A stretch of DNA of 39,572 bases, taken from contig CAMFSN010000002.1 in assembly GCA_945983015.1 (NCBI GenBank), positions 1 through 39,572 on the forward strand, written 5' to 3'. Below, in pieces: positions 32,324 through 39,572 of this stretch (position 1 is its first letter; each line of letters opens with the position of its first letter). This DNA is from an uncultured Bacteroidales bacterium (GTDB taxonomy: Bacteria > Bacteroidota > Bacteroidia > Bacteroidales > UBA932). A model generated the notes under the pieces. The model was given only the letters and a program-made list of their open reading frames with translations. It was not told the DNA's origin and searched no databases. The position numbers were made by a program, and so were the translations under genes.

Positions 32324-33010
32324 ATGAAGATCAAAGAAATCTGTCTAAGTGAAAGACCTCGGGAGAGGATGCTTTCCGCAGGGCCTTCAGCCCTTTCAAA
32401 CGGGGAATTATTAGCCCTTATCATTCGTAACGGTACTGCCCAGATGAATGTTCTGGACTTATCCCGACATCTGCTGAATAAATGCCAAGGCTCCCTCGTA
32501 GCCCTTTCCCGTCTGAGCATTGAGCAACTCTGTGAAATCAAAGGTATAAAGGAGGACAAGGCCTGCATTATCCAGGCTGTGTTCGAATTGGGCAGGCGCT
32601 TCATTTCCGAAGGTCAGGAAAGGGAGACTCCCCGCATTGCCAACTCCTTGGATGCTTACAGATTGCTGCTGCCTTTGCTGAAAGGGGTTGCCCACGAAGA
32701 GGCCTGGATTATTATCCTGGACTCTGCCCACAAAGTCCTGAACCTGCAAGCCATAGGGATAGGCAACTCCGAATCAGTGGTGATAGAATCCAAGCAGATA
32801 GTAAGAATGGTATTGGAGAACGGGGGTTCAGCCCTGATTCTGGCCCACAATCACCCAAGCGGGAATGCCTATCCCTCGGAGGCCGACATCAAAATGACTC
32901 AGAATCTGAGCAATGCCTGCGGCATATTCAATATCTCCCTGCTTGATCATCTGATCGTCTGCGACGGAGAATATTATAGTTTCTCGGAGAGCAAATGTAT
33001 TGGAAAATGA
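32324..33010 (+). CDS. radC: DNA repair protein RadC (JAB/MPN domain)
   Basis: LSERPRERML, IKGIKEDKACIIQAVFELGRR, LILAHNHPSGNAYPSEADIKMTQ, LLDHLIVCDGEYYSFSE. Confidence 0.95.
   Translation: MKIKEICLSERPRERMLSAGPSALSNGELLALIIRNGTAQMNVLDLSRHLLNKCQGSLVALSRLSIEQLCEIKGIKEDKACIIQAVFELGRRFISEGQERETPRIANSLDAYRLLLPLLKGVAHEEAWIIILDSAHKVLNLQAIGIGNSESVVIESKQIVRMVLENGGSALILAHNHPSGNAYPSEADIKMTQNLSNACGIFNISLLDHLIVCDGEYYSFSESKCIGK
32965..33010 (+). repeat. Left direct repeat (3' end of radC) flanking hicAB
   Basis: cggagaatattatagtttctcggagagcaaatgtattggaaaatga; matches 33740-33785 at 43/46 positions. Confidence 0.95.
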
Positions 33011-33050
33011 TATAAATGTATATATCTTTGTCTTGCCAAACGATCAGGAT

Positions 33051-33245
33051 ATGAGGAGGTATAAAGTTAGTCAAATCATCAAGCTCCTTGAGCAGGATGG
33101 GTGGGCAATAAAAAAATGGACGGGCGATCACAGGCAATTTACGAACCCGAACAAGCCGGGGAAGGTAACGATAAGAGGAAAACCAAGCGACACTTTAAGT
33201 CAGGAACTATTAAATAGCATTTTCAAACAAGCAGGGTGGAAATAG
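33051..33245 (+). CDS. hicA: HicA family toxin
   Basis: MRRYKVSQIIKLLEQDGWAIKKWTGDHRQFTNPNKPGKVTIRGKPSDTLSQELLNSIFKQAGWK; start set at internal ATG 33051. Confidence 0.9.
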   Translation: MRRYKVSQIIKLLEQDGWAIKKWTGDHRQFTNPNKPGKVTIRGKPSDTLSQELLNSIFKQAGWK

Positions 33246-33268
33246 TCACCCTGCAAAAACAAAGAGAT

Positions 33269-33676
33269 ATGGCAAATAAAATTGGAATAATAATTGACTG
33301 GGATGGTCATAACTACGCATCCTGCACTGAAAACGAAGATATCGCCTGCATCGCTACCGGAAAGACTCTAGAAGACGTAAAGGCAAATATGCTCGATGCC
33401 CTACAGCAGCATATCGATTGGATGAAGGAGGACGGTGATCCGCTTCCTGAAGAGTTCTGCGGAGAATGGGATCCTGAATGGCATCTGACCACAAGGGCCC
33501 AGCTGAAGTATTCAGATGCGTTTATCACTCGAAAAGCGCTTGCAGAGGTCACGGGTATCAATATCCAGCAACTCAGCCATTATGCAAGCGGATGGCGCCA
33601 TCCGCGTCCTGAGATGCAGCGACGCATCACTGAAGGAATTCGAACTATCCGGCAGAAATTAGCCATTATTTCCTAA
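33269..33676 (+). CDS. hicB: HicB family antitoxin with C-terminal HTH
   Basis: MANKIGIIIDWDGHNYASCTENEDIACIATGKTLEDVKANMLDALQQHIDWMKEDG; C-terminal ALAEVTGINIQQLSHYASGWRHPRPEMQRRI. Confidence 0.9.
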   Translation: MANKIGIIIDWDGHNYASCTENEDIACIATGKTLEDVKANMLDALQQHIDWMKEDGDPLPEEFCGEWDPEWHLTTRAQLKYSDAFITRKALAEVTGINIQQLSHYASGWRHPRPEMQRRITEGIRTIRQKLAIIS

Positions 33677-33739
33677 TTATATGCCAGCATCATAATAATA
33701 ACAATGTGAGCAAAAACTCAAATTAATGTGTCAAGCTTC

Positions 33740-33785
33740 CGGAGAATATTATAGTTTCTCAGAGAGTAAATGTATTGGAAAATAA
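33740..33785 (+). repeat. Right direct repeat: orphan copy of radC 3' end
   Basis: ggagaatattatagtttctcagagagtaaatgtattggaaaataa encodes GEYYSFSESKCIGK*, the same peptide as the radC C-terminus, with no ORF in front. Confidence 0.95.
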
Positions 33786-33796
33786 AAAACATTTTG

Positions 33797-33804
33797 TATA
33801 TTTG
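33797..33804 (+). promoter_or_regulatory. -7 element (TATATTTG) of tRNA-His
   Basis: TAnnTTTG match; a possible weak -33 (ATTG, 33774-33777) 19 bp upstream lies inside the orphan radC tail. Confidence 0.65.
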
Positions 33805-33807
33805 CAG

Positions 33808-33829
33808 TCCTTTAGCACGCGCTAAAGGA
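33808..33829 (+). repeat. Leader hairpin upstream of tRNA-His
   Basis: TCCTTTAGC-ACGC-GCTAAAGGA: 9-bp perfect stem, 4-nt loop. Confidence 0.9.
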
Positions 33830-33834
33830 TATAT

Positions 33835-33908
33835 GGTGCGATTAGTTCAGTTGGTAGAGCACTAGATTGTGGTTCTAGGTGTCGTGGGTTCGAGCCCCAC
33901 ATCGCACC
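33835..33908 (+). tRNA. tRNA-His(GTG)
   Basis: Encoded G-1, acceptor GTGCGAT/ATCGCAC, anticodon loop TTGTGGT (GTG), T arm GTGGG-TTCGAGC-CCCAC, C73. Confidence 0.96.
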
Positions 33909-33915
33909 CCCTGAT

Positions 33916-39517: not shown

Positions 39518-39572
39518 TTGTATATTTGCAGTCCTTTAGCACGCGCTAAAGGATATATGGTGCGATTAGTTC
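39518..39572 (+). repeat. Second copy of tRNA-His promoter/leader/5' end, truncated at window end
   Basis: Exact 55-bp match to 33794-33848, covering TATATTTG, the leader hairpin (39532-39553) and the first bases of tRNA-His. Confidence 0.95.
39559..39572 (+). tRNA. tRNA-His, 5' fragment (second copy, cut by window end)
   Basis: ggtgcgattagttc identical to the start of tRNA-His at 33835. Confidence 0.7.

Follow-up and report, generated by a model that had tools for sequence, protein, structure and literature searches.

A hicAB toxin-antitoxin module lies between two copies of the radC tail in a Bacteroidales genome, an arrangement that recurs with other genes and other cargo

Introduction

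How toxin-antitoxin modules integrate into chromosomes is stated to be unknown in a review of these systems (PMC7167474). The review describes plastic toxin-antitoxin loci in E. coli, i.e. relA-mazG and folA-apaH, at which different modules or none are present at a given site. More generally, a separate study of E. coli, S. aureus and S. pyogenes describes direct repeats, mostly shorter than 30 bp, on both sides of 10-18% of the small variable segments (PMC2884548).

The 39,572-nucleotide stretch of DNA analysed here (the window) comes from contig CAMFSN010000002.1 of an uncultured Bacteroidales bacterium (GCA_945983015.1; genome G000). In the window, a hicAB module lies between radC and a tRNA-His gene, and the 3' end of radC is found on both sides of the module. 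The locus raises the questions of how the module came to lie there, and which of the two tails is the original one. An initial sequence-only reading proposed a target-preserving insertion with gene-tail attachment sites.

Results

The radC tail is present on both sides of hicAB

The features of the locus, all on the plus strand, are as follows.

32324..33010, plus: radC, intact; TGA stop at 33008-33010; Pfam RadC and UPF0758_N, NCBIfam TIGR00608
32965..33010, plus: radC tail, copy 1; in frame and fused to the putative hicA promoter (repeat search)
33000..33030, plus: putative hicA promoter; -33 TTGG at 33000-33003 (inside radC), -7 TATCTTTG at 33023-33030
33051..33245, plus: hicA, predicted toxin, 64 aa; Pfam HicA_toxin, E=3e-17; 87.5% amino acid identity to G115
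33269..33676, plus: hicB, predicted antitoxin, 135 aa, C-terminal HTH; 87% amino acid identity to HicB of G115
33677..33739, plus: 63-bp spacer, from comparison with G115 and G145
33740..33785, plus: copy 2, the orphan radC tail; TAA stop; non-coding where it now sits
33775..33804, plus: putative tRNA-His promoter; -33 TTGG at 33775-33778 (inside the orphan tail), -7 TATATTTG at 33797-33804
33835..33911, plus: tRNA-His (GTG; ARAGORN), the native downstream neighbour of radC, as in G115

HicA (PF07927, 62.8 bits against a cut-off of 27) and RadC both score above their own Pfam cut-offs. The HicB-like and HTH Pfam matches of HicB are weak and below cut-off, and we identify this protein because its gene adjoins hicA and because it matches dozens of HicA-linked homologues in a homologue search; in most hicAB relatives, the hicB homologue lies downstream of hicA. 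By homology, the pair is a HicAB type II toxin-antitoxin module, with toxicity and its neutralisation predicted. The two genes are the only open reading frames between the tail copies and, as the sequence-only reading had stated, no integrase is encoded there. The first ~25 bp of the spacer resemble the DNA that follows hicB in G115 and G145, and the likeness stops at that point.

The two 46-bp tails are spaced 775 bp apart and differ at three positions (32986 G/A, 32992 C/T and 33009 G/A). Copy 1 is the in-frame end of radC, which reads GEYYSFSESKCIGK followed by the stop codon, and copy 2 starts sharply at 33740 with no matching flank. A genome search returned these two occurrences only, and the radC tail is absent from the viral contigs searched. 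The tail pair has an ungapped match score of 38, and none of 400 cross-locus flank pairs exceeds 14; thus, the tail duplication is far above chance. Repeat search and alignment in this way bear out the duplicated tail with three differences, the hicA and hicB genes between the copies and the tRNA-His gene behind them, all of which had been read from the sequence.

The radC stop codon is fused to the putative hicAB promoter/operator

In G115 and G145, hicAB homology starts at the module's own promoter (...TTTGGAATATGATATAAAATTGTATATCTTTG...) and includes no radC sequence, and in the window the transition from radC tail to hicAB promoter is at TTGGAAAATGATATAAA. Most hicAB relatives, of which 40 were compared, conserve the motif TGATATAA..TATATCTTTG ahead of hicA. 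This motif forms part of a palindromic operator-like site, GATATAA..TATATC, between the hicA promoter elements, and this site also provides the TGA stop of radC: TGA is the first part of the conserved TGATATAA half-site. Alignment, therefore, shows the radC stop fused to the putative hicAB promoter/operator. The TGA/TAA difference is consequently not a radC divergence, and the radC-derived match is, as judged from these alignments, 44 bp with two differences, the third sitting in hicAB-derived sequence. The proposal that all differences are synonymous or stop-preserving changes within radC thus holds for 32986 and 32992, which are both synonymous in the radC frame, and fails for the stop codon, which stems from the hicAB operator.

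The -33 TTGG elements of hicA (33000) and of tRNA-His (33775) are identical radC-tail bases, one in each copy. Both promoters were called by motif only and we infer their function; the -33/-7 elements are of the promoter type usual in Bacteroidota. At three other loci (L023, L025 and L027), tRNA-Ala directly follows radC and the -33 region of the tRNA promoter is inside the radC tail.

At seven loci (L072, L073, L084, L087, L098, L102 and L108), an inverted repeat of 12-14 bp frames the hicAB transcript, for instance with ACCAAACAATCAGG before hicA and CCTGATTGTTTGGT at the hicB end. The repeat covaries on both sides (GTC..GAC vs ACC..GGT) and is eroded in the window. It could reflect pairing of the mRNA ends or represent terminal repeats.

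hicAB is an insertion between radC and tRNA-His

None of the 400 genus genomes sampled lies close to G000, and no relative closer to it than G115 was found (400 + 222 genus genomes, GTDB contigs). On contig C2 of G115, tRNA-His lies 66 bp after the radC stop in the same orientation and without hicAB, i.e. the site is empty, and the hicAB of G115, which is 82% identical to that of the window, is on another contig. Because the site is empty and the related module is located elsewhere, hicAB in the window is, by comparison with G115, an insertion between radC and tRNA-His, as had been proposed. Where G115 matches neighbouring DNA of the window, identity is mostly 66-76%, and the two RadC proteins share 49% identity. 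In view of these values and the 82% identity of hicAB, the module was most likely acquired separately from its surroundings and is probably of horizontal origin.

The radC/tRNA-His order in G115 places the orphan copy beside its native neighbour and supports the earlier suggestion that the orphan is the original tail. At the positions aligned with 32986 and 32992, the radC tail of G115 has third bases A and T, like the orphan copy; this agrees with the same suggestion, though two sites prove little. A microhomology at the right end (CCGGAG) with the terminator of G115 was considered and rejected, since the spacing differs by ~30 bp.

No toxin gene was found within 1.4 kb downstream of radC in 29 other genomes, and no orphan tail at 35 other radC loci; therefore, radC is not a recurrent site. 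Among phages and plasmids, HicB has distant matches only, and in IMG/VR two contigs match at 51%, and hence no clear vehicle emerges.

Duplicated gene tails recur at other toxin-antitoxin loci

At 100 hicAB/HicA loci of the genus, we looked for direct repeats on the two sides of the module. Five of these loci, including the window, lie between duplicated gene tails or terminators; the other four are listed here.

G014: repeat of ~50 bp, a vapBC terminator flanking hicAB
G203: repeat of 22 bp, a comM tail with stop flanking hicAB
G266: repeat of 28 bp, a comM tail with stop flanking hicAB
G033: repeat of 17 bp, half a terminator flanking hicAB

In G203 and G266, the two tail copies are identical. 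L090 has a repeat of 28 bp that does not come from a gene tail, and this locus was left out of the five. Sliding pseudo-cassettes at 2267 positions gave one unrelated locus with a repeat, and pseudo-cassettes near toxin loci at 1611 positions gave six, among them L075 and L096, at which the repeats surround toxin-antitoxin modules. With spanning repeats at a threshold of at least 16, the count is 7 of 100 loci (a looser set that includes L090 and L096) versus 23 of ~3850 pseudo-cassettes (Fisher p ~7e-6, indicative only: positions are non-independent, the window is an ascertainment case and the flank windows differ slightly between sets).

The arrangement extends to other cargo. In G132, phd/yoeB lies behind tRNA-Leu, and the tRNA end together with the terminator is duplicated; in G012, vapBC is followed by a diverged tail. 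An effect specific to hicAB was rejected, as ParE/RelE and PIN controls have repeats as well; those at L189, L196 and L209 are dispersed repeats or other duplications, not gene tails. At L189, repeats of ~210 bp surround a parDE-like module. At L205 (G111), a glycerophosphodiester-phosphodiesterase-like gene behind vapBC has 150-bp direct repeats on both sides. At L111 (G056:C24), two different hicAB modules are arranged in tandem; one and the same intergenic block (well >84 bp) stands before both, and their hicB 3' ends are identical (gene conversion or unequal exchange). At L079 (G014), L103 (G203) and L266 (G044), hicA is internally deleted or truncated and hicB is intact: the toxin has decayed and the antitoxin is retained.

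Gene X and comM are hotspots with alternative cargo

Gene X (L075:2919-3389, minus strand; homologues L234-L263) is a core gene that 182 of 190 genomes carry, and a Pfam search assigned it to no family. In G243, the order is gene X, higBA, orphan gene X tail and hicAB. In G175, gene X is followed by a Bro-N gene and then by a 77-bp orphan tail that differs at two positions. The alternative cargo with the same duplicated tail that the sequence-only reading had asked for is thus present at gene X, with higBA and Bro-N, and not at radC. In G175, the sequence behind the orphan matches what follows gene X in ~22 of 29 other genomes, whereas the sequence behind gene X's own end has no such match in any of the 29. 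The orphan is, therefore, the original tail, still joined to its native neighbour; this settles the polarity at gene X and independently supports the one proposed for radC. The tail now fused to gene X came with the cargo or was copied with it. The tail pairs encode different ends, i.e. ENNNLGLK-stop and ENF-stop in G243, and EY-stop and EL-stop in G175, as expected if one tail came from another lineage. In G243, there are also synonymous differences between the copies upstream of the differing C-termini, and the orphan is diverged.

Among 160 toxin loci, 13 follow gene X at a distance of no more than 700 bp (6 HicA, 7 PIN), and five follow comM within 70 bp. By a rough estimate (2 genes of ~2000), well below one toxin locus per gene would be expected. 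Thus, the tails of gene X and comM are toxin-antitoxin hotspots. These loci are probably partly inherited together, so there were fewer events than loci. Depending on the genome, the gene X 3' end is followed by hicAB, vapBC, higBA, AbrB-PIN plus hicAB, or a Bro-N gene, and the comM/yifB 3' end is repeatedly followed by hicAB of different types (L154, L264, L266, L171, L103, L110 and L270). RadC and ComM are both tied to competence or recombination; the link here may be coincidence.

The order is comM, hicAB and next gene in G207, and comM, hicAB, comM tail, vapBC and the same next gene in G266, and G211 has comM without a module. Thus, two modules are stacked at one site in G266 with a comM tail between them.

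Discussion

Based on these comparisons, we suggest that hicAB entered by additive, non-reciprocal recombination, in which homology in the radC tail served as the anchor at one end and the other end was illegitimate; this is the best explanation in our judgement, and we hold it with somewhat more confidence than doubt. In this model, the donor DNA would have borne a radC tail, and this tail would have provided the homologous anchor, a type of junction for which G243 and G175 give the best support. The other end would have been joined illegitimately just upstream of the resident tail. Nothing would be lost: radC would keep a full end, i.e. copy 1, which runs into the module's own promoter, while the resident tail would remain with tRNA-His as copy 2 and retain the -33 element. 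The same process could account for gene X with higBA, gene X with Bro-N and comM with hicAB, all with orphan tails, and for the loci in G266 and G243 at which two toxin-antitoxin modules are stacked. Once in place, the module would presumably be kept by ordinary HicAB addiction. The sequence-only reading went further in assigning the replacement tail to another lineage; an islet with a replacement tail partly stands, but a donor from another lineage is not proven, because the copies differ at just two radC-derived positions and those in G266 and G203 are identical. A donor arrangement, i.e. radC-hicAB without an orphan tail, was not found in any genome examined, no known donor sequence accounts for the right-hand junction, and anchors of 17-28 bp at some loci are short for RecA.

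The identical copies in G203 and G266 would suit a local event, in which hicAB was captured by template switching or staggered-break repair without incoming radC homology, so that the recipient tail was copied twice and the two differences came later. The variable repeat length, from 17 to 77 bp, and the lack of a radC tail at hicAB relatives elsewhere fit such a duplication during capture, which is possible for the window. On the other hand, the copy ends differ in G243 and G175, and the G243 copies differ synonymously further upstream, as if from two lineages; overall, we regard this explanation as unlikely. Still less probable is the reverse order of events, in which an older radC-hicAB allele gained a fragment with the radC tail and tRNA-His from an empty allele, so that two alleles became stacked. 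G266 and G243 resemble stacked alleles, and a second tRNA-His start is present at the contig end, but none of 29 other genomes has a radC-hicAB allele and G115 has radC followed by tRNA-His.

Site-specific integration, in which a tyrosine recombinase supplied in trans would use the gene tail as its attachment site and hicAB would be a minimal integrative islet, would explain why the gene is kept at its 3' end, the classical layout for such sites, and why the comM and gene X tails are reused. However, the repeats range from 17 to 77 bp with no sequence common to the loci, the cassettes extend from a promoter to a stop codon or shortly past it rather than to a conserved end, hicAB elsewhere starts at its own promoter, no integrase is present in the cassette, and different cargo families have the pattern in common. 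These features argue against site-specific recombination; we consider it very improbable, and the idea of gene-tail attachment sites is not supported here. Least probable of all is an artefact of metagenome assembly, in which an empty-allele contig was attached after the one with hicAB. The genome is in draft form, with 123 contigs, a few of the exact stretches have lengths near 21-29 bp, and a 55-bp exact repeat at the contig end is typical of graph overlap; yet the junction contains no N, the copies differ inside the repeat, the repeat lengths match no single k-mer, and unrelated assemblies have the same pattern, G243 and G012 with diverged orphans. The contig-end repeat itself (39518-39572) consists of a second tRNA-His start with its leader, an exact copy of 33794-33848; it looks like a k=55 assembly-graph overlap, and tRNA-His may be duplicated or two alleles may meet there.

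The additive recombination that we favor would have a counterpart in homology-facilitated illegitimate recombination, by which foreign DNA enters with one homologous and one illegitimate end in Streptococcus pneumoniae, Acinetobacter and Pseudomonas stutzeri, and in E. coli conjugation (PMC3240628). This process could plausibly supply a gene tail together with the cargo. However, it is known from laboratory transformation and conjugation, while here it is deduced from scars in draft genomes, the anchors are short and the recipient has no deletion. For type VI effector-immunity modules of Vibrio cholerae, the same recombination has been proposed, and there displaced 3' ends make the event recognisable (PMC5361080). 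In the orphan immunity arrays of V. cholerae (PMC5361080) and in Rhs loci, a conserved gene has received a new toxin module at its 3' end and the old end is pushed downstream, as here; the displaced tail is the toxin gene's own in those systems, whereas it belongs to an unrelated host gene (radC, comM or gene X) in our case. Integrative elements with attachment sites in gene 3' ends likewise restore the gene by a duplicated 3' end, but here there is no integrase between the copies and no conserved core sequence, and the cargo is minimal. The plastic loci of E. coli resemble our loci in having variable modules per site, and the consulted part of the review makes no mention of gene-tail duplication (PMC7167474). 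For small variable segments, the consulted part of that study reads the repeats mainly as deletion substrates and does not tie them to gene tails or toxin-antitoxin modules (PMC2884548). Our literature search found no description of orphan host-gene tails as scars of toxin-antitoxin insertion, which is not proof of absence.

Orphan tails provide a handle on the question of how toxin-antitoxin modules enter chromosomes. They are a readable scar with a polarity, in which the original tail stays by the native neighbour and the other tail by the cargo, and they mark independent insertions and predict donor genomes. As a result, comparative genomics and simple transformation assays can be used to test the question of integration. 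At radC, we see how an insertion can leave the upstream gene intact together with a putative tRNA promoter that has its -33 element in that gene. For the genus as a whole, we tentatively speculate, with more doubt than confidence, that toxin-antitoxin modules and single-gene cargo may spread mainly as a gene tail plus cargo that docks by one-sided homology at the 3' ends of a few core genes such as gene X and comM. If true, the resident tail would be kept and insertions would be additive, stackable and later excisable by recombination between the tails, and there would be a general, recombinase-free route for toxin-antitoxin mobility.
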